Shown: positions 46,268 through 57,789 of the stretch, piece after piece
Layout: each line of letters begins with the position of its first letter
Numbering within the stretch: position 1 is the first letter of the stretch
From: Acidimicrobiia bacterium
GTDB taxonomy: Bacteria; Actinomycetota; Acidimicrobiia; Acidimicrobiales; AC-14
Length of the DNA: 64,000 nucleotides
Reading direction: 5' to 3'
NCBI GenBank assembly: GCA_023264995.1
Contig: JAHFUR010000005.1
Location: 1-64,000, forward strand
The notes under the pieces: generated by a model
Told to the model about the DNA's origin: nothing
Database searches by the model: none
What the model saw: the letters and a program-made list of their open reading frames with translations, nothing else
Made by a program: the position numbers and the translations under genes

Positions 46268-47905
46268 CTACTTGATCAGGACCGGCGTGTCGCACTGCAG
46301 GTTCAGGGCGGTCACGTCCGCGCTGCCGATGTCGATGCCCAGGGCCTGGAGCAGGGGGGTCAGGACCAGGCTGTCGACGTTGCCGATCACCGGGCTCAGG
46401 GCGGCCACGGTCGTCGAGACGATGCTGTTGAGCAGCGGCGCGGCGATCGCGTTCAGCACGACTGGGGTGCCAGCGGTGAACGTGGTCAGGCCCTGGAGGC
46501 CGATGGGCTGGGAGCCGGCGTGCTTGCTGGTGGTGGTGCCCGCCGGCGGCGGGAACTCCGTGGGGTAGCTGAAGCTCAGCGCGGTCGACCCGCCGTCGGT
46601 GTTGGGCACCACGTTGGTCGTCGGGATCCGCAGGACCGGGATATCGACGAACAGCACGGTGGCATAGACATCCAGCGACGCGGACGCCGACCCGGAGAAG
46701 GCGGTCGGGTCGACCGTGACGGTGATCCCCGCCGGCGTCCCGCAGGTGGCGGCCGTGAGAGTACCGAGCGCCCCGGCCCCGCTGACCCGAACGGGGAGGT
46801 CGTTCTTCACGTGGGCACCGACCAGGCCGGCAACCGTGATCGGCAGGTCCAGCTTGGGCGTGACAGTGAGGTCGATCTGGGCCGTGCTGACGCTGACACC
46901 CACCGGGCCGAAGGTCCACTGCGGGGGCTGGATGACCTGCAGGCTGACCTTGGTCGACACGACGCTCCCGACGGTGATCCCGACGTCGTTGATGGTCACG
47001 AAGTTGCTGCCGTTCGCCACCTGTGCCGACCCCGTCAGCAGCTGGAAGACGTTCATCTGCGACGCCAGCGCGGCGTTGTCGGCACCTTGGGACACGTGCA
47101 TGAACTGGCCCAGCGTGAACTGCGTCGAGTTGGTGATCGACGCCCGCAGGGTGTTGAGCTGCGTGGCCAGGGCCAGGTTGGCCACGCCACCCTCGGTGGT
47201 GAGGGCGCCGGCCGTGGCCTGGAGGAGCTGGTTCATGGTGAGGTTGGCGGCCAGGAGCTGGCTCACCGTGCCAACGCTGAAGCCCATGCTGGCCAGCGAC
47301 GTCCGGAAGGCGTCCAGCGTGACGTCGCCGGCGGCGATCCCCTGCCAGCTGACCAGGGAGAGGCTGAGGTCGCTGCCCTTCAGGATGCCGCCCATGAACT
47401 TGTTGAGGAGGGTGGCCCTGCTGGTGTCGAGGGTCAAGAGCGACGACCCGATCATGAACCCGCCGAACGCCGTCTTGCCGGCCACCGCGACGCGGGTGAC
47501 GCTCGTCCGCCCGCTGACGAAGGGGAACTTGTTGGTGTAGGGCGACGTCACCGTCACGCAGGCCGACCCGGCGCCCGCCACGGCGGCGCAGGCGTTGCCG
47601 ACCTTGCCGCCCTCGACGGCGGTCACCGAATAGCCGGCGGTCGTCGGGAAGCTGTTGCGGGCCGCACTGGCCTGGGCCAGCGTGGTGTAGTTGGCCGGCA
47701 GGCCGCGGACGGCGTCCAGGGCGGCCAGGTCGGCGACCTTCTGGTCCTGGCGGGCGTCCTGGGCGAGGCCACCGATGTCGATGGCCAGGGCGGCGGCGAT
47801 CATGGCGACCACGATGCCGACGGCGGCGAGGACGAGGATGGCGCCCCGCTCCTCGCCGTGACCATGGGCGCGGGTGAGCATCGTTCGGGACCTCGTCTCG
47901 CTCAT
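46268..47905 (-). CDS. TadG-like pilus-locus protein
   Basis: 545 residues from the ATG at 47905, overlapping the TadE-like stop (ATGA). The N-terminal EERGAILVLAAVGIVVAMIA plus ALAIDIGGLAQDARQDQKVA is the Tad_N/TadG pattern: one membrane anchor followed by a helix linking to a large exported part. The body is Thr/Val/Ser-rich, with many short beta repeats and two Cys-containing loops, consistent with a surface protein. It lies in the minus arm of the divergent Tad locus and is probably a minor pilus component or adhesion factor. Confidence 0.8.
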   Translation of the reverse strand: MSETRSRTMLTRAHGHGEERGAILVLAAVGIVVAMIAAALAIDIGGLAQDARQDQKVADLAALDAVRGLPANYTTLAQASAARNSFPTTAGYSVTAVEGGKVGNACAAVAGAGSACVTVTSPYTNKFPFVSGRTSVTRVAVAGKTAFGGFMIGSSLLTLDTSRATLLNKFMGGILKGSDLSLSLVSWQGIAAGDVTLDAFRTSLASMGFSVGTVSQLLAANLTMNQLLQATAGALTTEGGVANLALATQLNTLRASITNSTQFTLGQFMHVSQGADNAALASQMNVFQLLTGSAQVANGSNFVTINDVGITVGSVVSTKVSLQVIQPPQWTFGPVGVSVSTAQIDLTVTPKLDLPITVAGLVGAHVKNDLPVRVSGAGALGTLTAATCGTPAGITVTVDPTAFSGSASASLDVYATVLFVDIPVLRIPTTNVVPNTDGGSTALSFSYPTEFPPPAGTTTSKHAGSQPIGLQGLTTFTAGTPVVLNAIAAPLLNSIVSTTVAALSPVIGNVDSLVLTPLLQALGIDIGSADVTALNLQCDTPVLIK

Positions 47906-48345
47906 GAGTACTGGACCACCGCGGTCGACGTGATCGTGCTCGGCGTGATGAGCCCGAGGCCGGGCGCCGGCGGGACGACCGGATGAGCCGACAGGTTGTA
48001 GGTGATCGTCACCGTGATGCACTGGTTCGACCCGCAGGCCCCGGTCGAGTACGTGGGCGTGTAACTGCCCGACGGCAGCCCGGCGGCGAGCACCCGGGCC
48101 GTCGCCGCGCTCACGGCGGTGGCCGACGAGGTCTGGCCGACCGCGGCGCGGGCCCCCTCGGCGGCGGCGTTGGTGATCCGCTGCTTGGTGGCCAGGATCA
48201 TGCCAAAGGCAATGAGCCCATACAGGATGAACACGAACAGGCCCACGACGAGGGCGAACTCCACTGCGGCCGCTCCCGACTGGTCGTGGCGGAGGAAACG
48301 CCGCCGCGCCGGTACGGCCGGCAGCACGTCATGTCGTCGGGTCAC
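47902..48345 (-). CDS. tadE: TadE-like minor pseudopilin
   Basis: 147 residues from a GTG at 48345 with GGGAG seven bases upstream. The ATG at 48393 is rejected because it lies upstream of the predicted -10 box. The motif DQSGAAAVEFALVVGLFVFI matches the TadE consensus with Glu five residues after the processed Gly, followed by LYGLIAFGMILATKQRITNA. It would be processed by a prepilin peptidase and act as a pseudopilin in Flp pilus assembly. Two Cys in TGACGSNQCIT may form a disulfide. Co-translated with the TadG-like gene. Confidence 0.85.
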   Translation of the reverse strand: MTRRHDVLPAVPARRRFLRHDQSGAAAVEFALVVGLFVFILYGLIAFGMILATKQRITNAAAEGARAAVGQTSSATAVSAATARVLAAGLPSGSYTPTYSTGACGSNQCITVTITYNLSAHPVVPPAPGLGLITPSTITSTAVVQYS

Positions 48346-48383
48346 GCTGAGCTCCCACGGGGTCATGGACTGGGTCAGGTGAC

Positions 48384-48411
48384 CTATCGGCATGGGGATG
48401 CAAACGCTTTA
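48384..48411 (-). promoter_or_regulatory. Sigma-28-type promoter of the tadE unit
   Basis: On the minus strand TAAA (48411-48408) is followed after 16 bases by GCCGATAG (48391-48384). This is very close to the TAAA-N15/16-GCCGATAA consensus of FliA/WhiG/SigD sigma factors. Expected start of RNA is near 48377, so the GTG at 48345 is the consistent tadE start. An AAATTGCC box lies upstream at 48430-48423. Confidence 0.7.
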
Positions 48412-48428
48412 GGGCCCGAATAGGCAAT

Positions 48429-48462
48429 TTGACCTACAGGGTGGGCTCCCACCGGCCGAAAA
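48429..48462 (+). promoter_or_regulatory. Promoter of the cpaB-tadC-kinase-regulator operon, pilin-type architecture
   Basis: TTGAC (48429-48433), ACAGG (48436-48440) and GCCGAAAA (48455-48462) have exactly the same spacing as the boxes upstream of all four flp genes. The 48-bp region also serves the divergent tadE promoter, and the AAATTGCC box overlaps here on the opposite strand. The 5' leader to cpaB would be about 65 bases. Confidence 0.6.
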
Positions 48463-48535
48463 CGTTCTTGGGCGATCACCCGACGCGGGTGTCGGACCGA
48501 ACCCAATCCCCTCGAACAGACCGGAGACTTCCAAC

Positions 48536-49267
48536 ATGGGAAAGCGCTCGAACTTGATCGTGACCCTCGGCCTCGCCGTCTTCATCGTCGGCGCGGCGGC
48601 CACTTATCTCGTCGTCCGCAACAGTAATGACGGCTCGTCCGTCGGCGCCGGGAAGGTGTCCGTCCTGGTGGCGGCCAAGCCCATCCCCGCCGGTACGACC
48701 GGCGCCAGCGCCGTGAGCCAAGGCCTGATCAAGGACAAGGGGATCGACGCCGCCGCTCGCCCGGCGACGGCCATCACCGACGTCTCGCAGCTGGCGGGCA
48801 AGACGGTGACCCTCGGCGTCTCCGAGGGCGAGATCCTCACCACCGACCAGTTCCAGGCCGCGCAGACCCGGATCGGCACGCTGAAGATCCCTGACGGCAA
48901 GACGGCCCTCGCCGTGCAGCTGGCCAACGTGCCGGGCATCGCCGGCTTCGCCGGCGCCGGCGACCACATCAACGTCTACGGCGTCATCAAGGCCGGCTCC
49001 GACCCCAAGAACCCCAACGGCATGGCCCACCTGATCATGCAGAACACCGAGGTCCTGAACGTCAACGGCGCCACGCTCGCCGCGGCGCAGGGCCAGCCGG
49101 CGGGCACCGCCCTCCTCTACCTGCTGGCCGTCAGCCCGACCGAAGCCGAGCGCCTCATCTACCTCAGCACCTTCGAGTCCCTCTACTTCTCCCTGGTGTC
49201 GAAGGACGCCGCGCCGGTGGGTGTCACGCCCGGCTCGAGCATCGCCGACGCTCTCAGGCAGTTCTGA
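48536..49267 (+). CDS. cpaB: CpaB/RcpC-like pilus assembly protein (SAF domain)
   Basis: 243 residues. A single N-terminal membrane segment (NLIVTLGLAVFIVGAAATYLV) is followed by a SAF domain at about residues 40-110 (VSVLVAAKPIPAGTTGASAV, GKTVTLGVSEGEILTTDQF) and an RcpC-type region (GKTALAVQLANVPGIAGFAG, AGDHINVYGVI). In diderms it gates the secretin; here, without a secretin, it presumably contacts the wall or the assembly platform. First gene of the plus-strand Tad operon. Confidence 0.88.
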   Translation: MGKRSNLIVTLGLAVFIVGAAATYLVVRNSNDGSSVGAGKVSVLVAAKPIPAGTTGASAVSQGLIKDKGIDAAARPATAITDVSQLAGKTVTLGVSEGEILTTDQFQAAQTRIGTLKIPDGKTALAVQLANVPGIAGFAGAGDHINVYGVIKAGSDPKNPNGMAHLIMQNTEVLNVNGATLAAAQGQPAGTALLYLLAVSPTEAERLIYLSTFESLYFSLVSKDAAPVGVTPGSSIADALRQF

Positions 49268-49315
49268 TCCACCGACTTCGTGACCGACAGGCAAGAGAGT
49301 TGAGGAGAAGCCACC

Positions 49316-50584
49316 GTGCGTAATCCCAAGATCCTCGTCCTTGAGAAGGACGAGAGCCTGGCCGACCAGGTCCGGGGCGTGGCCGCCGAGCTGCGCCCCC
49401 GGCCTGAGGTCGTCGCTGTCGACCGGGCCACCGGTGTCGAGGACGCGGTCAACGCCGACGGTCCGTTCGACGTCATGATCGCCGGCCCGAGCATGAGCAC
49501 CAAGAACGGGCTCTCCGCGCTGCAGGCCATTCATGACGAGACACCGGCGACCAGCCTGGTCCTGGCCTTCGCCAAGCGGCCCGACGCCTCCCTGCGGGAG
49601 ATCATCCGCACCGGGGCCATGGACCTGCTCCAGCTCCCGGTGGCGGACAAGAGCCTGCACGATGCCGTGGAGAGGGCCGTGGCCATGAGCCGCAGCCAAC
49701 CCACGTCGTCGGCCGGCGCCCCTCACCACCTTGCCGCCCCGATCGCCCACCTGGGCACGGTCTTCACGGTGTCGTCGGCCACGGGTGGGTGCGGCAAGAC
49801 GTTCTACGCCACCAACCTGGCGTACTACCTGCACCAGTACACGGGGAAGCGGACCTGCATCATCGACCTGGACCTGCAGTTCGGCGAGGTGTCGACGGCG
49901 CTGCGGCTCCGCCCCCGGTTCACCATCTCCGACATCCTCTCCCGCGATGACATCGACGAGGTCAACCTCGCCGACCACATCGACGAGTACGTCGTCACCC
50001 ACGACTCGGGCGTGACCGTGCTGCCGGCGCCCAAGGACCCCTCCGACGCCGACCGCATCCACCCGGCCGACGTCCAGCGGGTGATCGAGGCGGCCCGGGC
50101 CAAGTTCGACTACGTGATCGTCGACACGCCCGCCGCCCTGACCGAGATCGTGCTGGCCGCGTTCGACCTGTCGAACCAGCTCTACGTCATGGCCACCCTC
50201 GACCTCCCCAGCGTCCGCCACATGGGCGTCTTCCTCAACACCCTGGAGAAGCTCAAGATCTCCTCGGACAACGTGAAGCTCATCCTCAACAAGGCCGAGC
50301 GCGACGTCGGCCTCGACGTCGCCCAGGTCACCCGCCTCTTCCCGCAGGGCTTCACTTCGGTGCTGCCCTACGCCAAAGAGGTCACCAAGTCGGTGAACGT
50401 CGGTACACCGGTGCTGGCGTTCGCCCCCACCTCAGAGGTCAGCCGGCGCATGGCCGCGGGCATGAGCCCGCTCCTTCCCGAGGCCAGCCGGGGCAAGGCC
50501 CTGGAGGCCGAAGGCCCGACCAAGCGCAGCCTGATGGCCCGGATCCTGCGCCGTACCCCTTCAGCGGCCACGGCCATTTCATGA
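49316..50584 (+). CDS. cpaE: CpaE/TadZ-like localisation ATPase
   Basis: 422 residues, GTG start with GAGGAG eight bases upstream. Residues 1-120 form an atypical receiver-like domain (KILVLEKDESLADQVRGVAA, PFDVMIAGPSMSTKNGLSAL) lacking the full phosphorylation set. The ATPase part has the deviant Walker A SSATGGCGKTFYATNLAYYL, RTCIIDLDLQFGEVSTAL, and FDYVIVDTPAALTEIVLAAF. MinD/ParA-type proteins of this class place the Tad machine at a pole or site. Sits between cpaB and cpaF, the normal order. Confidence 0.9.
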   Translation: MRNPKILVLEKDESLADQVRGVAAELRPRPEVVAVDRATGVEDAVNADGPFDVMIAGPSMSTKNGLSALQAIHDETPATSLVLAFAKRPDASLREIIRTGAMDLLQLPVADKSLHDAVERAVAMSRSQPTSSAGAPHHLAAPIAHLGTVFTVSSATGGCGKTFYATNLAYYLHQYTGKRTCIIDLDLQFGEVSTALRLRPRFTISDILSRDDIDEVNLADHIDEYVVTHDSGVTVLPAPKDPSDADRIHPADVQRVIEAARAKFDYVIVDTPAALTEIVLAAFDLSNQLYVMATLDLPSVRHMGVFLNTLEKLKISSDNVKLILNKAERDVGLDVAQVTRLFPQGFTSVLPYAKEVTKSVNVGTPVLAFAPTSEVSRRMAAGMSPLLPEASRGKALEAEGPTKRSLMARILRRTPSAATAIS

Positions 50585-50603
50585 AGACGACTAGGAGGAC
50601 CAC

Positions 50604-52103
50604 GTGAAGCTCTCCGACAAGTTGGCCGCCCTCGAGGAGCAGGAGAACGGCTCGCCTTCCGGCCGCCCGCAGCCTCCCGGCACCGCCAACCGGTCCCCGG
50701 CCTCGCGTCCCTCGGCCACCTCGGCCGGGGCGGCCCGGGCCCGGCAGAACTCGACGGCCAGCTGGCAGGCGTCGAAGCGGAAGGTCCGGGAGCTCGTGCT
50801 CTCCGAGGTGGCGCCCAAGGCCACCGGCCTCTCCGAGACCGCCCTGGCCGCCGAGGTCAAGTCCGCACTGGACAAGATCATCCAGCGTGAGGACGTGAAG
50901 GTCTCCCCCCGGGAGCGCCGGTCCTTCGTGCAGGAGATGATCTCCGACACCCTCGGGTACGGGCCGCTCGACCCGCTGCTGAACGACGTGAGCATCACGG
51001 AAATCATGTGCAACAAGTACGACGACGTATGGGTCGAGCGCGACGGCAAGTTGGTCCGCACCAACTCCACGTTCACCGATGACCAGCAGTACCGGCACGT
51101 GATCGAGAAGATCGTGGCCGGCGTCGGTCGGCGCATCGACGAATCGTCGCCCATGGTCGACGCCCGTCTCCCCGACGGATCCCGTGTCAACGCCATCCTG
51201 CCGCCCCTCGCCATCCACGGGCCGATCCTCACCATCCGGAAGTTCGCCGCCGACCCGTACACGGTGAAGGACCTCATCAACTTCGGCACCTTCACCCTCG
51301 ACCTCTCGGTCGTCATGGAGGCGTGCGTCCGGGGCAAGCTCAACGTCCTCGTGTCCGGCGGTACCGGCACCGGCAAGACCACCAACCTCAACGTCCTGTC
51401 GAGCTTCATCCCCGAGGGTGAGCGCATCGTCACCATCGAGGACGCGGCCGAGCTCCAGCTCCAGCAGTCCCACGTGCTCAGCCTGGAGTCCCGCCCCCCC
51501 AACGCCGAAGGCGCCGGCGAGGTCCGCATCCGCGACCTGGTCCGCAACGCCCTCCGTATGCGGCCCGACCGCATCATCGTCGGCGAGGTCCGAGGCGCCG
51601 AGGCCCTCGACATGCTCTCGGCCATGAACACCGGCCACGAGGGCTCGATGACCACCGTCCACAGCAACGGCCCCCGCGACGCCCTCAGCCGCCTCGAGAC
51701 CATGACCCTGATGGCCGGCTACGAGCTGCCGATCAAGGCCATCCGGGAGCAGATCAACTCGGCCCTCAACGTGATCATGCACCTCGACCGCATGCCCGAC
51801 GGCCGGCGCGTCGTCACCTCCGTGACGGAGCTGCAGGGCATGGAGGGCGAGACGATCCTCCTCCAGGACATCTTCAAGTACAAGCAGTACCCCCGGGGCG
51901 AGAACGGCCGGACCACCGGCGAGCTGGTGGCCACCGGGCTGCGGCCCAAGTTCCTCGACAAGCTGGCCGAGCAGGGCATCGAAGTACCGGCCAAGGCCTT
52001 CCGGGCCCCGTCGACCGCGCCGCCTCCCACCACCTCCCGGCTGCGGGGCACGACCCGTGTGCCGTCCATCGCCCAGCTGGCGACTGCGGAGCGAGCCCGA
52101 TGA
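50604..52103 (+). CDS. cpaF: CpaF/TadA-type secretion ATPase
   Basis: 499 residues, GTG start after GGAGG. Low-complexity Pro/Ser head, then the T2SE fold: LGYGPLDPLLNDVSITEIMC, Walker A GGTGTGKTT at residues 252-260, Asp box IVTIEDAAELQLQQSHVLSL, Walker B MRPDRIIVGEVRGAEALDML, and His box TGHEGSMTTVHSNGPRDALS. Hexameric motor that powers Flp pilus assembly. A C-terminal extension (AFRAPSTAPPPTTSRLRGTT) is specific to this copy. Its stop overlaps the tadB start by four bases. Confidence 0.95.
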   Translation: MKLSDKLAALEEQENGSPSGRPQPPGTANRSPASRPSATSAGAARARQNSTASWQASKRKVRELVLSEVAPKATGLSETALAAEVKSALDKIIQREDVKVSPRERRSFVQEMISDTLGYGPLDPLLNDVSITEIMCNKYDDVWVERDGKLVRTNSTFTDDQQYRHVIEKIVAGVGRRIDESSPMVDARLPDGSRVNAILPPLAIHGPILTIRKFAADPYTVKDLINFGTFTLDLSVVMEACVRGKLNVLVSGGTGTGKTTNLNVLSSFIPEGERIVTIEDAAELQLQQSHVLSLESRPPNAEGAGEVRIRDLVRNALRMRPDRIIVGEVRGAEALDMLSAMNTGHEGSMTTVHSNGPRDALSRLETMTLMAGYELPIKAIREQINSALNVIMHLDRMPDGRRVVTSVTELQGMEGETILLQDIFKYKQYPRGENGRTTGELVATGLRPKFLDKLAEQGIEVPAKAFRAPSTAPPPTTSRLRGTTRVPSIAQLATAERAR

Positions 52104-53062
52104 ACGCCGGGGTCTTCGCCATGATCTTCGTCGGCGGCGGCCTCGCCCTCATGGTCGGCGGCCTCCTTTTCCGGGTCAGGGAACGGGAGAAGGCGCTCGC
52201 CGAGATCCTCGACCTGCCCTTCGGGGAGCGCGACGTCAGGCCCGATTCCCTCTCCGAGGGCTACAGCCCGCTCGTCGAGGGCACGATCGGCCTGGCCGGC
52301 AAGATGGTCGAGCAGTTCGACGAGAAGGGCGACATGCGTGCCGCTCTCGAGCGGGCCCGCATCCCGATGCGGCCGGGGGAGTACCTCATCACCGCCGGCG
52401 CGGCGACACTCGTGCTGGCCGCCGCTCTGTACGGGCTGACCGGTTCGTGGATCGTCGGCCTGGTCGGCCTGGTCATCGGCCCCATGGGCGCCTCGTCCTA
52501 CATCCGCTTCCGGATCGCCCGCCGGCGCAAGGCCTTCGAGGCCGCACTCCCCGACGCCCTCACGCTGATCGCGTCGTCGCTCTCGGCCGGCCACACGTTC
52601 CTCCGGGCCATCCAGATGATGACCGAGGAGGCCGAGCCGCCGCTGTCGGAGGAGTTCGGCCGGCTCGTCGCCGAGACCCGCTTGGGTGACCCGGTGATCG
52701 ACGCCCTGGCCCGTATGGCCAAGCGGCTCGAGATCCGCGACCTCGACTGGGTCGTGCAGGCCGTCCGGATCCAGCAGACCGTCGGCGGCCGCCTCGCCGA
52801 CCTGCTGCACACCCTGGCCGACTTCATCCGGGCTCGTGAAGAGGTCCGCCGCGACGTCGCCGTCCTCACCGCCGAGGGCCGCATCTCGGCCTGGGTGCTC
52901 ACCGCCCTGGCCCCGTTCATGTTCCTGGCCATCCAGACCGCCAGCCCCGGCTACATGAAGCCGATGTTGCAGGGGTGGGGCTTGGTGGTGCTCGGCTTCA
53001 CCGTGGCCCTCATGACCTTTGGCTCCGTCATCATCTTCCGCATGTGCAAGATCGAGGTATAA
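52100..53062 (+). CDS. tadB: TadB-like inner-membrane platform protein
   Basis: 320 residues. Membrane segments near the N terminus (MIFVGGGLALMVGGLLF), at about residues 95-135 and at the C terminus (TALAPFMFLAIQ; LGFTVALMTFGSVIIF). The T2SSF core is FEAALPDALTLIASSLSAGH, TFLRAIQMM, and DLDWVVQAVRIQQTVGGRLA. Forms the assembly platform with TadC and contacts CpaF. The ATGA overlap with cpaF shows coupled translation. Confidence 0.92.
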   Translation: MNAGVFAMIFVGGGLALMVGGLLFRVREREKALAEILDLPFGERDVRPDSLSEGYSPLVEGTIGLAGKMVEQFDEKGDMRAALERARIPMRPGEYLITAGAATLVLAAALYGLTGSWIVGLVGLVIGPMGASSYIRFRIARRRKAFEAALPDALTLIASSLSAGHTFLRAIQMMTEEAEPPLSEEFGRLVAETRLGDPVIDALARMAKRLEIRDLDWVVQAVRIQQTVGGRLADLLHTLADFIRAREEVRRDVAVLTAEGRISAWVLTALAPFMFLAIQTASPGYMKPMLQGWGLVVLGFTVALMTFGSVIIFRMCKIEV

Positions 53063-53065
53063 GAC

Positions 53066-54001
53066 ATGTCCTCCCTCAGCATCCTCGCCGGCAGCTTCAC
53101 CGTCCTCGGCGCCGCCGTCGCCGCCTTCGGGGTGGTCCAGGCCCGCCGGCCGGCGTTCAACGTCGAGGAGTACTTCCAGAACCTCGACGCCGACGCCGGC
53201 ACCGCCGGCCCGGTCGACGTCTTCGAGGCCCAGCTGGCGCAGCCCTTCTGGGTCCGCGTGGTCCAGCCTTTCAGCGGGAAGGCGCTCAAGAGCGTCACCC
53301 GGTTCACGCCGAGCGAGTACCTCGAACGGACGCACCGCAAGCTGCTGCTGGCCGGGCTGACCCGGGCCATGCGGGCCGAGGAGTTCGTCATCGCCCAATC
53401 GGCGGCCACCGCGCTCCTCACGCTGTCGGCTCTGGCCTACCTGGTCCTGGCCCACCCGGCGCCCCGTACCGGCATCATGATGCTGGTCCTGGCGCCGGTG
53501 GTCGGTTGGTGCTTGCCGGCATCCTGGCTGTCCCGCAAGGTCACGGAACGGCAGGGTTCGATCCTCAGGGACCTCCCCGACACGCTCGACCTCCTGGCCA
53601 TCTCGGTCGAGGCCGGCATGGGCTTCGAAGGCGCCCTGGAGATCGTGTGCCAGCACTTCACGTCGCCGTTGGCCGACGAGTTCGCCCGCACCCTGCACGA
53701 GATGGAGCTGGGGCTGCCCCGACGCGACGCGTTCCAGAACCTGAAGCGCCGCACTGCGGTCCCCGAGCTGTCGAACTTCGTGCTCGCCCTCCTGCAGGCC
53801 GACGCCCTCGGCATCCCCATCGGCCGGGTGCTCAAGACCCAGGCCGTCGAGATGCGCAGCAAGCGCCGGCAGTGGGCCCGGGAGAAGGCGGCCAAGCTGC
53901 CCGTGAAGATGCTGTTCCCCCTGATCGGGTTCATTTTCCCGGCGATCATGGTCGTGATCCTGGGCCCGGCGGTCGGTGGCATCAGCCACGGGCTGAAGTA
54001 A
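53066..54001 (+). CDS. tadC: TadC-like inner-membrane platform protein
   Basis: 311 residues, starting three bases after the tadB stop. Second T2SSF protein: LRDLPDTLDLLAISVEAGMG, FEGALEIVCQHFTSPLADEF, FVLALLQADALGIPIGRVLK and RRQWAREKAAKLPVKMLFPL, with hydrophobic segments around residues 110-155 and at the C terminus (IGFIFPAIMVVILGPAVGG). Standard partner of TadB in Flp pilus biogenesis. Confidence 0.92.
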   Translation: MSSLSILAGSFTVLGAAVAAFGVVQARRPAFNVEEYFQNLDADAGTAGPVDVFEAQLAQPFWVRVVQPFSGKALKSVTRFTPSEYLERTHRKLLLAGLTRAMRAEEFVIAQSAATALLTLSALAYLVLAHPAPRTGIMMLVLAPVVGWCLPASWLSRKVTERQGSILRDLPDTLDLLAISVEAGMGFEGALEIVCQHFTSPLADEFARTLHEMELGLPRRDAFQNLKRRTAVPELSNFVLALLQADALGIPIGRVLKTQAVEMRSKRRQWAREKAAKLPVKMLFPLIGFIFPAIMVVILGPAVGGISHGLK

Positions 54002-54004
54002 CCC

Positions 54005-55657
54005 ATGCCGGCCGCCGTGCCGAAGACGCCGTCGCCGGCGGTCCCGGCCCTCCCTGTCGGGTCGCTGGGCGCCGGCGTGCGGTGGGCGACGCTGGCGCTC
54101 GGTGTCGTCCTGGCCGCCAGCTCCGGCATCACGACGGTCCGTGTCGCGGCGTGGGCGCTGGCCCTGGCCGGCCTGGCGTGGTGGCAGTCCCATCCCCACG
54201 CAGGTGCCGGGCGCCGGCTCCGCATCTCCGGGGCCGTGGAGCTCGCCATCGACCTGGCGGCCGTCCTCTCCACGGGCACGTGGAACTCGCCCTTCGTGTT
54301 CTGCGTGCTGGGTGGGGTCATGACGCTCGGGTTCGCCGGCGGCTTCAGCGTGGGCCTGCGAGCGGCGGCGCTCGCCAGCATCGCCATCGCCGTCCCCTAC
54401 CACCTCGGCCTGGTCCACACGACGGTCGACAACGTTGTCCTCACTGGGCAGTGGACGATCGAACTGGGCCTGGTCGCCGCCCTCGCCGGCTACGCCCGCC
54501 GGCTGTTCGGTGAGGTCCAGGAGCGCCACACGCTCACCCTCGACCGGATGAGCCAGCTCACCGAGGCGAACGACCTGCTGGTCTCGCTCCATCGCGTGGC
54601 CCAGACGCTGCCCGCGTCCCTCGACCTGCAGCAGGTGCTGACCTCGACGGTCAGCCGCCTCCGGAGCCTGATCGAGTGCGACGTCGTCGCCGTGCTGCTT
54701 CGTGACGAGGCCACCGGCGCCTGGACCGTCGGGGCCGCCGAGGGCGCCGGCCTGCCCCGGGCGCTGGCCGACGCCGACCTGCCGGCCCCGCTGGCCGCGG
54801 CCACCAGCAGCAGCGTGGCCTCGTTGGTCGTGAGCCTCGGACCGGGCGAGAGCCTCGGACCGGAGATCCTGAGCCGGTCGGGGCTGTACGCCCCGCTGCG
54901 GGCCCGGGGTGCGCTCGTGGGCCTGATCGCCCTCGAACAGCACGAGCCCGGCTTCTACGGACGCCGTGACCTACGCCTCCTCGACGGGTTCACCGAGCCG
55001 GCGGCGCTGGCGATCGACAACGCCCGATGGTTCAGCCGCCTCCGCACCATCGGGGCCGACGAGGAACGGGTCCGCATTGCCCGCGACATCCACGACAGCA
55101 TCGGTCAGTCGCTGGCGTTCGTGGCGTTCAAGCTCGACCGGCTCGCCGGCCTGGCCAAGGAGCCGGCGATGCGCGAGGAGCTCGACGGGCTCCGTACCGA
55201 GGTCAGGGGCGTGCTCACCGAAGTGCGGGACACGTTGTGCGACCTCAGGACCGATGTGACCGACACCCGCGGCCTGGTGGAGACCCTCGAGGAGTTCCTC
55301 GAGCGGGTCCGCGAGCGGGTCGACTTCGACGTTTCCTTCACCCACGAGTCGTCCGGGAGGCTCTCACTTATCCAGGAACGGGAGGTATGGCGTGTGGCCC
55401 ACGAGGCGGTGGCCAACGTCGAACACCATGCCCGACCGAAGCACCTGCGCGTACGGTGGGAGTGTGACGGGACCCGGGGCCTACTGACGGTGGCGGACGA
55501 CGGTCGCGGCTTCCCAACCGGCACCTCCGCCGGGCCGGGGAGCTACGGCATCCAGGGCATGAAGGAACGGGCCAACGCCATCGGGGCCCGACTGGAGATC
55601 GACTCCGAGCCGTTCGTCGGTACCGTGGTCGAATGCCGCTTGGAACCGGCGGCATGA
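54005..55657 (+). CDS. Membrane histidine kinase with GAF domain (NarL-type system)
   Basis: 550 residues. About five membrane segments in residues 25-165 without a large external domain, a GAF domain at about 190-340 (LDLQQVLTSTVSRLRSLIEC, APLRARGALVGLIALEQHEP), then HisKA_3 with His363 in VRIARDIHDSIGQSLAFVAF, and an HATPase_c domain (VWRVAHEAVANVEHHARPKH, VADDGRGFPTG, YGIQGMKERANAIGARLEID). Starts three bases after tadC and overlaps its response regulator. The position between platform and pilin genes argues that it controls pilus production. Confidence 0.92.
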   Translation: MPAAVPKTPSPAVPALPVGSLGAGVRWATLALGVVLAASSGITTVRVAAWALALAGLAWWQSHPHAGAGRRLRISGAVELAIDLAAVLSTGTWNSPFVFCVLGGVMTLGFAGGFSVGLRAAALASIAIAVPYHLGLVHTTVDNVVLTGQWTIELGLVAALAGYARRLFGEVQERHTLTLDRMSQLTEANDLLVSLHRVAQTLPASLDLQQVLTSTVSRLRSLIECDVVAVLLRDEATGAWTVGAAEGAGLPRALADADLPAPLAAATSSSVASLVVSLGPGESLGPEILSRSGLYAPLRARGALVGLIALEQHEPGFYGRRDLRLLDGFTEPAALAIDNARWFSRLRTIGADEERVRIARDIHDSIGQSLAFVAFKLDRLAGLAKEPAMREELDGLRTEVRGVLTEVRDTLCDLRTDVTDTRGLVETLEEFLERVRERVDFDVSFTHESSGRLSLIQEREVWRVAHEAVANVEHHARPKHLRVRWECDGTRGLLTVADDGRGFPTGTSAGPGSYGIQGMKERANAIGARLEIDSEPFVGTVVECRLEPAA

Positions 55658-56322
55658 CCGCCGCCGCGGCACAGCCCGTGCCCGCCACTCGGCTGGTGCT
55701 GGCCGACGACCACCGCATGCTCCGGGACAGCCTGCGCCGGGCCCTCGAGGAGCACGGCTTCGACGTGGTCGGTGAGGCCGCCGACGGCCAGGAGGCCGTG
55801 CGGCTGGCCCTGGCCTTGAGGCCCGACGTCGTACTGATGGACGTCTCAATGCCCGTCCTCGACGGGGTGGAAGCAACCCGCCAGCTGCACCGTGTCGCCC
55901 CCGACGCCCAGGTGGTCATGCTGACGATGCACGCCGACGGCGACGTCATGGCCCGGGCCATCCAGGCCGGCGCCGTAGGCTACCTGGTGAAGGACTGCTC
56001 GATGGACGAAGTGGTGGGCGCCATCCGCCTCGCTGCCAGCGGTGAGAGCGTGCTCTCCCCCGGGCTGGCCAGCTCGATGCTGGCCGAGATGGGAAAAGCC
56101 GATCGAGCGGGGAGCCAGGGCCCGATCATCAGTGCCCGGGAGGAGGAAGTGCTGCAACTGGTGGCCGACGGCCTGTCGCTGCCCGAGGTCGCCACCACCC
56201 TCTTCATCAGCATCAAGACGGTGAAGAACCACCTGGCCTCGATCTACTCAAAGCTCGACGCCCGCGACCGGACCCAGGCCGTCCTGCGCGCCGTGCGCAT
56301 GGGGATCATCCGCCTGGACTGA
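55654..56322 (+). CDS. NarL/LuxR-type response regulator
   Basis: 222 residues from the ATG at 55654, overlapping the kinase stop by four bases; an in-frame ATG at 55633 lies inside the kinase gene. Receiver domain: VLADDHRMLRDSLRRALEEH, phospho-acceptor Asp63 in DVVLMDVSMPVLDG, Thr in VVMLTMHADGD, Lys in GYLVKDCSMDE. C-terminal LuxR HTH: ISAREEEVLQLVADGLSLPE and FISIKTVKNHLASIYSKLDA. A good candidate to bind the AAATTGCC-type boxes found upstream of the pilin genes that begin 120 bp later. Confidence 0.93.
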   Translation: MTAAAAQPVPATRLVLADDHRMLRDSLRRALEEHGFDVVGEAADGQEAVRLALALRPDVVLMDVSMPVLDGVEATRQLHRVAPDAQVVMLTMHADGDVMARAIQAGAVGYLVKDCSMDEVVGAIRLAASGESVLSPGLASSMLAEMGKADRAGSQGPIISAREEEVLQLVADGLSLPEVATTLFISIKTVKNHLASIYSKLDARDRTQAVLRAVRMGIIRLD

Positions 56323-56352
56323 ACCCGGATGTCAGCCGGCGGAATGGGTCGA

Positions 56353-56387
56353 TTTGCCTATCAGGGGAGGGGGTGCGGGGCCGATAT
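56353..56387 (+). promoter_or_regulatory. Promoter of flp pilin gene 1
   Basis: TTGCC (56354-56358), TCAGG (56361-56365) and GCCGATAT (56380-56387). The last box is identical to the SigD-type -10 core, with 15 bases after the TCAG that occupies the -35 place. A leader of about 48 bases with a short GCCC/GGGC hairpin precedes the pilin ATG. Confidence 0.6.
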
Positions 56388-56442
56388 ATCCCTGTAGCAA
56401 TGCCCTCCAGCGGGCGCACCCGAGATGACGAGGTACTGAACA

Positions 56443-56628
56443 ATGGACATCTACAGGAACATCGCCCCCTTCCTGCGGGCACGCTTTGGCAACACCGAGC
56501 GGGGAGCGGCGCTCGTCGAGTACGCCCTCCTTCTGGCACTTATCGGGGTCGTCTGCATTGTGGCCCTGACCACCCTGGGCAACAAGGCCAGTTCGAAGTT
56601 CAACGCCGTCGGCAACTCACTGGGCTGA
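56443..56628 (+). CDS. flp: Flp pilin 1 (divergent copy)
   Basis: 61 residues. A 21-residue basic leader ends with Gly21; after the expected prepilin-peptidase cut the mature pilin starts AALVEYALLLALIGVVCIVA, with Glu at +5 and Tyr at +6, the Flp signature. The 40-residue mature protein ends KFNAVGNSLG. Compared with the other three copies it has Phe10, Asn17 and Gly35 instead of Tyr10, Asp17 and Ala35, and many silent differences. It is therefore an older duplicate. Confidence 0.95.
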   Translation: MDIYRNIAPFLRARFGNTERGAALVEYALLLALIGVVCIVALTTLGNKASSKFNAVGNSLG

Positions 56629-56652
56629 GCCTCACCCGCGTCGGCCGGACTG

Positions 56653-56680
56653 AAGGGAGTGGGCACCGTCCCACTCCCTT
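56653..56680 (+). terminator. Hairpin terminator after flp pilin 1
   Basis: Perfect 11-bp stem AAGGGAGTGGG / CCCACTCCCTT with a six-base loop. It is followed by CTCGCG rather than a T tract, so it may attenuate or stabilise the 3' end rather than fully terminate. Confidence 0.75.
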
Positions 56681-56721
56681 CTCGCGTCCACACCATCAGG
56701 ACGGTTGCTCAAAGATGAGCC

Positions 56722-56758
56722 AAATTGCCCATCAGGTCGAGGACGAACTGGCCGATGT
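56722..56758 (+). promoter_or_regulatory. Promoter of flp pilin gene 2
   Basis: AAATTGCC ending at 56729, TCAGG (56732-56736) and GCCGATGT (56751-56758), same spacing as in the other copies. The leader contains a GCCCCG/CGGGGC hairpin and GAGG nine bases before the ATG. Confidence 0.6.
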
Positions 56759-56815
56759 TCTTAGTACAACCGAAGCCCCGCACCCGGGGCCCTCACGACC
56801 CCGAGGTACACAACC

Positions 56816-57001
56816 ATGGACATCTACCGCAACATCGCCCCCTACCTGCGTGCCCGTTTCGGCGACACCGAGCGTGGTGCGGCCCTCGTGGAGTACGCCC
56901 TCCTCCTGGCCCTCATCGCCGTTGTCTGCATCGTGGCCCTGACCACCCTGGGCAACAAGGCCAGCTCGAAGTTCAACGCCGTCGGCAACTCCCTGGGCTA
57001 G
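56816..57001 (+). CDS. flp: Flp pilin 2
   Basis: 61 residues, processed after Gly21 to a mature pilin beginning AALVEYALLLALIAVVCIVA. Identical in protein to copy 4 and one residue different from copy 3 (Asn47 here, Asp47 there). Together with its promoter, leader hairpin and terminator it forms a unit of about 378 bp that is repeated almost exactly in copy 3. Major subunit of the Tad/Flp fibre. No TadV/CpaA prepilin peptidase is encoded in this window. Confidence 0.95.
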   Translation: MDIYRNIAPYLRARFGDTERGAALVEYALLLALIAVVCIVALTTLGNKASSKFNAVGNSLG

Positions 57002-57036
57002 CCGCCAGCACCATCTGACCTCCCCCCGGTCACGCA

Positions 57037-57066
57037 GAAGGGAGTGGGCTCCGGCCCACTCCCTTC
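57037..57066 (+). terminator. Hairpin terminator after flp pilin 2
   Basis: 13-bp perfect stem GAAGGGAGTGGGC / GCCCACTCCCTTC with a TCCG tetraloop. No T tract follows (TCGCG). Confidence 0.78.
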
Positions 57067-57099
57067 TCGCGTCGGCCGACCGGCGAAGGGAAATGGGCC

Positions 57100-57136
57100 A
57101 AATTACCCATCAGGTCAAGGACCAACTGGCCGATGT
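57100..57136 (+). promoter_or_regulatory. Promoter of flp pilin gene 3
   Basis: TTACC (57103-57107), TCAGG (57110-57114) and GCCGATGT (57129-57136). Nearly identical to the copy 2 promoter, with the same 65 bases from GCCGAT to the ATG. Confidence 0.6.
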
Positions 57137-57193
57137 TCTTATTACCACCGAAGCCCCGCACCCGGGGCAACCGAGACCCCGAGGTACACAACC

Positions 57194-57379
57194 ATGGACA
57201 TCTACCGCAACATCGCCCCCTACCTGCGTGCCCGTTTCGGCGACACCGAGCGTGGTGCGGCCCTCGTGGAGTACGCCCTCCTCCTGGCCCTCATCGCCGT
57301 CGTCTGCATCGTGGCCCTGACCACCCTGGGCGACAAGGCCAGCTCGAAGTTCAACGCCGTCGGCAACTCCCTGGGCTAG
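57194..57379 (+). CDS. flp: Flp pilin 3
   Basis: 61 residues, same leader and mature sequence as copies 2 and 4 except Asp47 for Asn47 (TTLGDKASSK). The ATG at 57194 follows GAGG by nine bases; a longer open frame from 57044 includes the promoter and is not used. At the DNA level it differs from copy 2 at only a few positions, indicating recent duplication or gene conversion. Confidence 0.95.
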   Translation: MDIYRNIAPYLRARFGDTERGAALVEYALLLALIAVVCIVALTTLGDKASSKFNAVGNSLG

Positions 57380-57411
57380 CCGCCACCACCATCTGACCTC
57401 CCCCCGGTCAC

Positions 57412-57452
57412 GCAGAAGGGAGTGGGCTTCGGCCCACTCCCTTCTGCTTTTT
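57412..57452 (+). terminator. Strong Rho-independent terminator after flp pilin 3
   Basis: 16-bp perfect stem beginning GCAGAAGGGAGTGGGC, UUCG tetraloop closed by C-G, and a T5 tract at 57448-57452. This is the most complete terminator of the four. Confidence 0.92.
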
Positions 57453-57508
57453 CCGCGTCAGGGGAAGGTGGGGCTCGCCGGCACACGGGCGCACCAGCCC
57501 AATGAGCC

Positions 57509-57545
57509 GAATTGCCCATTAGGTCGAGCCCGAACGTGCCGATAC
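57509..57545 (+). promoter_or_regulatory. Promoter of flp pilin gene 4
   Basis: TTGCC (57512-57516), TTAGG (57519-57523) and GCCGATAC (57538-57545). Sequence between the boxes has diverged from copies 2 and 3 while spacing and boxes are kept, which argues for selection on these bases. Confidence 0.6.
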
Positions 57546-57603: not shown

Positions 57604-57789
57604 ATGGACATCTACCGCAACATCGCCCCCTACCTGCGTGCCCGTTTCGGCGACACCGAGCGCGGTGCGGCCCTCGTGGAGTACGCCCTCCTCCTGGCCC
57701 TCATCGCCGTTGTCTGCATCGTGGCCCTGACCACCCTGGGCAACAAGGCCAGCTCGAAGTTCAACGCCGTCGGCAACTCCCTGGGCTAG
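57604..57789 (+). CDS. flp: Flp pilin 4
   Basis: 61 residues, protein identical to copy 2. Ribosome site GAGAGGG lies close to the ATG. The leader hairpin is GCCCC/GGGGC with a different loop. Codons are almost unchanged relative to copies 2 and 3, although upstream sequence is clearly different, so the coding part seems homogenised by gene conversion or strong selection. Confidence 0.95.
   Translation: MDIYRNIAPYLRARFGDTERGAALVEYALLLALIAVVCIVALTTLGNKASSKFNAVGNSLG

Follow-up and report, generated by a model that had tools for sequence, protein, structure and literature searches.

The locus for sticky Tad/Flp pili in the window (the whole 64,000-nucleotide stretch that was analysed, DNA of an uncultured actinobacterium of the Acidimicrobiia) is probably transcribed from composite promoters that are read by WhiG RNA polymerase and carry a regulator-bound palindrome. 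A sigma-28-type -10 element, a palindrome, their fixed spacing and their conservation are evident in the DNA, as are predicted genes for WhiG, RsiG, a kinase and a regulator.

Genes for tadA, tadB/C, cpaB, tadE and flp together mark this as a Tad/Flp pilus locus (positions in the window):

47902-48366, minus strand: tadE (PF07811, 49.7 bits)
48536-49267, plus strand: cpaB/rcpC (TIGR03177, 81.2 bits; cut-off 71)
49316-50584, plus strand: tadZ/cpaE-like ATPase with a receiver-like domain
50604-52103, plus strand: tadA-type ATPase (PF00437, 211 bits; TIGR03819, 336.9 bits, under the cut-off of 373)
52100-53062, plus strand: tadB-like membrane protein (PF00482)
53066-54001, plus strand: tadC-like membrane protein (PF00482)
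54005-55657, plus strand: sensor histidine kinase with hydrophobic N-terminal segments, GAF, HisKA_3 and HATPase
55633-56322, plus strand: NarL/LuxR-type response regulator, proposed as the activator that binds the operator (PF00072, 104 bits; PF00196, 59 bits)
56443-56628, plus strand: flp1 pilin (PF04964, 34.4 bits; cut-off 32.2)
56816-57001, plus strand: flp2 pilin
57194-57379, plus strand: flp3 pilin
57604-57789, plus strand: flp4 pilin

The start of tadE is probably the ATG at 48366, because a longer frame from 48393 overlaps the -10 element. The four flp units form a tandem duplication, with pilins that are 95 to 100% identical.

The first-pass annotation described three plus-strand boxes (TTGCC-, TCAGG- and GCCGAT-like, offsets +0/+7/+26) starting at 48429, 56354, 56725, 57103 and 57512, and a minus-strand tadE site, TAAA-N16-GCCGATAG, at 48411-48384. 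All of these are present, the weakest of the five plus-strand sites being that of cpaB (TTGAC, ACAGG, GCCGAA). As the flp units arose by tandem duplication, the offsets that they share are in part a product of descent and do not amount to four independent observations. The TTGCC box was misread as a promoter element: it forms the right-hand side of a palindrome of 18 bp, ATRRGYCRAWTNRCCYAT, and the -10-like GCCGAT follows 17 to 18 nt after this inverted repeat. The predicted elements are:

48370-48387, unstranded: second palindrome, which overlaps the -10 and the predicted start site of tadE (kept in G001 with a score of 15.2)
48384-48411, minus strand: tadE promoter TAAA-N16-GCCGATAG, full sigma-28/WhiG consensus; operator end 28 nt before the -10
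48420-48437, unstranded: palindromic putative operator ATAGGCAATTTGACCTAC, 18 bp, common to the divergent cpaB and tadE promoters (conserved in G001; other spacing in G005 and G006)
48436-48460, plus strand: cpaB promoter ACAG-N15-GCCGAA, weak; operator end 17 nt before the -10
56344-56361, unstranded: flp1 putative operator palindrome ATGGGTCGATTTGCCTAT
56361-56387, plus strand: flp1 promoter TCAG-N15-GCCGATAT
56715-56732, unstranded: flp2 putative operator palindrome ATGAGCCAAATTGCCCAT
56732-56758, plus strand: flp2 promoter TCAG-N15-GCCGATGT
57093-57110, unstranded: flp3 putative operator palindrome ATGGGCCAAATTACCCAT
57110-57136, plus strand: flp3 promoter TCAG-N15-GCCGATGT
57502-57519, unstranded: flp4 putative operator palindrome ATGAGCCGAATTGCCCAT
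57519-57545, plus strand: flp4 promoter TTAG-N15-GCCGATAC

With TAAA-N15/16-GCCGATAA as the sigma-28/WhiG reference, five to six of the GCCGAT positions are matched at every site in the window. The -35 is TAAA at tadE, and off consensus at flp and cpaB (TCAG, TTAG or ACAG). At tadE, TAAA-N16-[GT]CCGATA is retained in three further genomes (G001, G005 and G006) while the spacer changes, and the site is conserved in three genera. The cpaB promoter keeps GCCGAAAAC in G001 and reads TCAA-N16-SCCGARAA, with a TCAA -35, in G005 and G006. A simple scan of the flp region found no sigma-70 consensus site. Of the shared sigma-28-like architecture previously proposed, the -10 stands, whereas box 1 is a probable regulator operator and the flp -35 (TCAG, N15) departs from consensus. 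The sigma-28 reading of the pilus promoters is well supported but incomplete, since the flp promoters look activator-dependent.

Pattern searches, on which all the genome statistics are based, found four exact copies of the palindrome in the genome, each preceding one of the four flp genes (0.007 expected from base composition), and a copy with one mismatch between cpaB and tadE. In this genome the palindrome is confined to pilus promoters. Its consensus was drawn up after the window sites had been seen, and related genomes provide the independent test. The palindrome was present in 46 of 73 flp upstream regions of relatives, compared with 0.6 in dinucleotide shuffles (four of the 73 are the window's own, and other tandem copies are counted as well). 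CCGAT lay 18 to 20 nt past it in 31 of these 46 promoters, representing 21 loci, and in about 1 of 46 at other gaps. CCGATA is the form conserved in relatives, and T[CA]A[AG] stood at N15/N16 in 11 of the 31, but almost nowhere else. Palindrome and -10 are kept at most flp promoters in about 20 related Acidimicrobiia genera. Gaps between palindrome and -10 are of 17 to 20 or 27 to 28 nt, two classes about one helical turn apart. At several flp promoters (L068, L069, L071 and L072) the palindrome is recognizable without the -10. The boxes are conserved in related genomes, and so the first-pass reading is not refuted on this point; sharing across the whole locus holds in the genus of the window and in two genera sister to it, whereas elsewhere the element was seen at flp promoters only.

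Genome-wide, TMAA-N16-NCCGATA occurred 11 times (1.7 expected, P = 2e-6), while TCAG-N15-CCGATA alone was no commoner than chance (5 against 2.7 expected). These two classes were separated after the hits had been seen; when expected numbers were recomputed from window word counts, only the TMAA-N16 class stayed enriched. Three TCAG-N15 sites elsewhere in the genome fall within coding frames and were set aside. A reversed-word control for sigma-28 sites (16 versus 0) was discarded as unfair, because composition alone predicts about 13 matches, and a mismatch-tolerant search with the three boxes of the first-pass annotation gave mostly noise in this GC-rich genome. As TMAA-N16-NCCGATA sites also occur elsewhere in the genome, all without the palindrome, the regulon is probably not dedicated to pili, contrary to what had been supposed.

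It is unlikely that the regulator instead activates housekeeping (sigma-A) promoters, with CCGATA serving as an additional contact for the regulator or belonging to a second operator, and with no role for WhiG. The palindrome is indeed conserved better than the -35, its centre can itself read CCGAT, and the TCAG-N15 sites are not enriched. However, an operator half-site is defined by its ATRGG flank, which is missing from the CCGATA box, and tadE, like cpaB of G005 and G006, has a full TAAA/TCAA-N16 -35. The restriction of T[CA]A[AG] to N15/N16, the enrichment of TMAA-N16-NCCGATA away from palindromes and the failure of the simple scan to find a sigma-70 site in the flp region also argue for a WhiG-type promoter.

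The FliA/WhiG-family sigma factor called for by the earlier reading is present: only one exceeds the cut-off in the genome (C35:75402-76076; TIGR02479, 270.8 bits, cut-off 189.6). It is a WhiG equivalog (NCBIfam NF004935, 347.9 bits, cut-off 343), closely matches Streptomyces WhiG (6pfj_A, E = 3e-89) and lies in the gene order dprA-xer-whiG-M23. Alignment to 6pfj_A and Escherichia coli FliA (6pmi_F) indicates that the DNA-contacting regions 2.4 and 4.2 are largely conserved. The anti-sigma factor RsiG, located via its motif as a DNA pattern and then confirmed, is also encoded (PF22802, 93.8 bits, cut-off 27; 6pfj_T, E = 3e-12). The motif E(X)3S(X)2R(X)3Q(X)3D occurs in two helices, exactly in helix 1 (EDRVSYLRRIIQGRLD) and with Q replaced by F in helix 2 (ERQASESRRGLFGRID). 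RsiG accompanies WhiG in 42 of 43 genomes, compared with 4 of 17 genomes lacking WhiG (P = 6e-9, shared ancestry ignored).

Consistent with the absence of flagellar genes noted at first, flhA (PF00771) had no match in the window's genome (G000, 98% complete) or in the other genomes of the family. A second FliA-like sigma factor found among relatives showed no association with FlhA (P = 0.76) and so is not called flagellar. It is the sole such sigma factor in G011, a single-contig genome that keeps the element and has neither WhiG nor RsiG, so RsiG control is not universal. In G054 (88% complete, 670 contigs) flp, the regulator and the boxes are present, with no sigma match at the threshold used.

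The response regulator comprises a receiver and a GerE helix-turn-helix, matching the VraR structure 5hev (E = 6e-43) as well as NarL structures; among the models listed, it reaches no NCBIfam equivalog cut-off. An orthologue (at least 217 bits) was found in 26 of 30 flp genomes and in 2 of 30 others (P = 2e-10, shared ancestry ignored). In most related genera flp is immediately preceded by a NarL/LuxR-type regulator gene, usually with the palindrome in the gap. From this adjacency and co-occurrence we infer that the locus-encoded regulator probably binds the palindrome beside each promoter. That another protein binds it, or that the adjacent regulator acts as a repressor, gating WhiG promoters, is quite unlikely: an operator that overlaps the flp -35 or, at 48370-48387, the tadE start site would also suit repression, but the co-occurrence of regulator and flp, the position of its gene directly upstream of the palindrome in most genera and the off-consensus flp -35 fit activation by this regulator. 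A plain sigma-28/WhiG regulon, in which the sigma factor reads all three boxes and no dedicated activator takes part, is very unlikely. WhiG and the -10 are present, and sigma-28 promoters usually work without an activator, but box 1 makes up one side of a palindrome whose two halves are both conserved in about 20 genera. Box 1 also lies further upstream than the contacts expected of a sigma factor, shifts by about one turn of the helix relative to a promoter that keeps its place, and is missing from the other genomic TMAA-N16-NCCGATA sites.

In the composite-promoter reading, the partner kinase would phosphorylate the response regulator, whose dimer would bind the palindrome. At flp and cpaB the regulator would overlap the weak -35 and recruit WhiG holoenzyme (class II-like), while at tadE, with its full-consensus TAAA, the operator lies one helical turn further upstream. 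RsiG would keep WhiG inactive at high c-di-GMP, as in Streptomyces and Rubrobacter, so that pilin output would need the kinase signal and free WhiG together. Since the genes for kinase and regulator come after tadC in the apparent cpaB transcription unit, positive feedback may result. A more specific form of this model, in which flp promoters are activator-dependent and of sigma-28 class, the regulator substitutes for the WhiG -35 contact, and Tad pili form in this flagella-less Acidimicrobiia branch only when the kinase signal comes at a time of low c-di-GMP (free WhiG), is offered tentatively, at a little under an even chance.

Control of Tad pili by the sigma-28 family, of which the first-pass annotation knew no description in this lineage, has published precedents. 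In Bdellovibrio bacteriovorus and B. exovorus, FliA transcribes a Tad operon with flp genes, according to a reporter assay (PMC5430801). A sigma-28-family factor likewise appears to act on a Tad locus with flp genes here, as judged from the DNA. Bdellovibrio FliA also controls flagellins as the attack-phase sigma factor, and the excerpted account names no palindromic operator (PMC5430801); in the present genome no FlhA was found and the sigma factor is WhiG with RsiG.

WhiG is related to the flagellar sigma factor and is elsewhere held by the c-di-GMP-dependent inhibitor RsiG; in Rubrobacter, type IV pili are under an RsiG-(c-di-GMP)-WhiG switch (PMC8325347). The likeness extends to a WhiG orthologue, RsiG, a flagellar-type promoter consensus, pilus targets and no need for sporulation. 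Differences here are Tad/Flp pili, a twin-motif RsiG and a palindromic putative operator beside a response regulator gene; the Rubrobacter study covers type IV pil genes, with neither Tad nor Flp in its text. Its excerpts report twin-motif RsiG in three of four Acidimicrobiales, naming no target for them, and describe Actinoplanes zoospores, which differ in being flagellated as well as bearing type IV pili, and in having no RsiG (PMC8325347).

Pseudomonas aeruginosa Flp pili are governed by the PprA-PprB two-component system (PMC3510237; tad control cited in PMC8467076). There, as is proposed here, a NarL/LuxR-family response regulator governs Flp/Tad pilus genes. We know of no sigma-28 link for PprA-PprB. 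Response regulators are tied to WhiG in Streptomyces, where BldM and WhiI bind 16-bp sites, palindromic for BldM, and WhiI is a WhiG target (PMC4125116). The BldM consensus, TCACCCGNNCGGGTGA, is unlike the window palindrome, and the Streptomyces system drives sporulation, not pili.

Acidimicrobiales RsiG thus gains a candidate target, in a second pilus class, which suggests that surface pili are a recurrent WhiG target in actinobacteria without flagella. The flp promoters would also represent a sequence-defined promoter type at which a response regulator seems to aid a sigma factor of the sigma-28 family, which usually acts unaided.

The locus in the window has the gene content of a Tad/Flp system: tadE on the minus strand, cpaB, a tadZ/cpaE-like gene, tadA, tadB, tadC, a histidine kinase, a NarL/LuxR-type response regulator and four flp pilins. 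Direct reading and pattern matching recovered all of the promoter boxes proposed in the first-pass annotation (TTGCC-like, TCAGG-like and GCCGAT-like, at +0, +7 and +26), with their coordinates and offsets:

48429, plus strand, boxes upstream of cpaB
56354, 56725, 57103 and 57512, plus strand, boxes upstream of the four flp genes
48411-48384, tadE promoter, minus strand, TAAA-N16-GCCGATAG

Identical offsets among the flp sites are weak evidence alone because the pilins are tandem copies, 95 to 100% identical. A closely similar GC-rich hairpin (GAAGGGAGTGGGC...GCCCACTCCCTTC) closes each flp unit (57412-57447, similar near 56655, 57037 and 57830); a hairpin scan scored only 57412, the one with an evident T-run. 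Each of the four units seems to be transcribed separately.

The first box, TTGCC, was present but is probably not a sigma factor element in its own right: extending the alignment upstream revealed an 18-bp palindrome, ATRRGYCRAWTNRCCYAT (the putative operator), of which TTGCC is the right half. Exact copies number four in the whole 3.8-Mb genome, every one at flp, against 0.007 predicted from composition alone (a consensus formulated once these sites were known). The single copy with one mismatch lies between cpaB and tadE, and two-mismatch matches include one at a fifth flp gene, which stands alone on contig 66 (11678-11842, L073); its palindrome has diverged, and CCCGAC follows at an unchanged gap.

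Flp-upstream loci taken from 30 relatives within the order, plus further regions, gave 73 distinct upstream regions, 46 of which contain the palindrome (dinucleotide shuffles gave 0.6). Of these 46, 31 have a CCGAT (at least 4/5 matching) that starts 18, 19 or 20 nt past the palindrome, other distances giving about 1/46; columns anchored on this -10 read [G]CCGATA. T[CA]A[AG] occurs at a spacer of 15 or 16 in 11 of the 31 and is almost absent at other spacers. In a few flp promoters the palindrome is present and the -10 is not clear. Across Tad regions of 12 genomes and the window, strong operator-plus-minus-10 matches were nearly all at pilus promoters, reversed sequence gave no match, and the few weaker matches elsewhere include several apparently within coding DNA. 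The shared element extends to cpaB and tadE in the window's genus and two sister genera (G005, G006); more distant genera have it at flp only.

In G001, G005 and G006 the tadE site is kept with one or two changes in its last bases, although the spacer diverges, and tblastn identified the divergent gene as TadE. The gap between operator and -10 is either 17 to 20 nt or 27 to 28 nt, a shift of about one helical turn. With the long gap the -35 is a full TAAA or TCAA; with the short gap the operator reaches up to or into the -35, which is weak in the window's genome. This would suit a putative activator contacting RNA polymerase on a fixed helix face. A second palindrome (48370-48387), conserved in G001 with a better match there, overlaps both the -10 and the start site of tadE, a position that suits feedback repression.

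Orthologues of the response regulator (at least 217 bits) occur in 26/30 flp genomes vs 2/30 without flp (P = 2e-10, on the false assumption that genomes are independent). Where both share a contig, the palindrome usually falls in a gap of 120 to 240 nt that separates the upstream regulator gene from flp. The regulator is similar to VraR and NarL, and the NarL heptamer TACYYMT looks like the operator half-site on the opposite strand, a lead only.

As for the predicted FliA/WhiG-family sigma factor, one gene exceeds the family cut-off, a WhiG equivalog whose DNA-contact regions are largely conserved with Streptomyces WhiG. Its neighbourhood, dprA-xer-whiG-M23, has the Streptomyces gene order. 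FlhA was not found in the window's genome or its family. Among 60 relatives, WhiG is the sole FliA-family sigma in several FlhA-bearing genomes, and a second FliA-like sigma (about 175 to 205 bits) shows no association with FlhA.

A DNA pattern for the motif of RsiG, the WhiG anti-sigma, picked out a single convincing gene, which Pfam PF22802 and the solved Streptomyces RsiG structure confirmed; rsiG (L205:2043-2504) adjoins genes for an S26 peptidase and a nickel superoxide dismutase. RsiG occurs in 42/43 WhiG-bearing genomes and 4/17 others (60 genomes; P = 6e-9, under the same false assumption of independence). This fits the twin-motif RsiG published for Acidimicrobiales (PMC8325347).

Exceptions exist. 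The single-contig genome G011 has a perfect palindrome plus ACCGATGG at flp (L047, L244, L245) and lacks WhiG and RsiG, only the second FliA-like sigma being present. G054, a fragmented assembly, has flp and the regulator and no sigma match at the threshold used.

Genome-wide, T[AC]AA-N16-NCCGATA occurs at 11 sites (tadE counted) vs 1.7 expected (P = 2e-6), this class having been split from TCAG-N15 after the matches were seen and the expectation taken from word counts in the 64-kb window. Some sites stand 8 to 12 nt ahead of plausible start codons; TCAA-N16-NCCGATA does so at genes for a MASE1 histidine kinase, an AAA ATPase and a MEDS-domain protein (C75:44309, C11:13073, C47:60190; L230, L231, L232). 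Such sites suggest leaderless messages and a regulon wider than pili, the three genes named being possible WhiG targets. In the window, TCAAGTC-N13-CCCGATA (2328-2302, minus strand) precedes, or stands at the start of, a reading frame assigned by eye to a secreted GH16-like glycoside hydrolase.

In the literature, a Bdellovibrio Tad operon is under sigma-28-family control (PMC5430801), Rubrobacter type IV pili are under WhiG-RsiG control (PMC8325347) and the Pseudomonas tad locus is controlled by PprB, a NarL/LuxR-family regulator (PMC3510237; title of a reference in PMC8467076). A search of the open literature, with most subscription papers outside it, found nothing on Tad pili with WhiG or Tad pili in Acidimicrobiia. 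Therefore, the parts being already known, it is their combination here that looks new.
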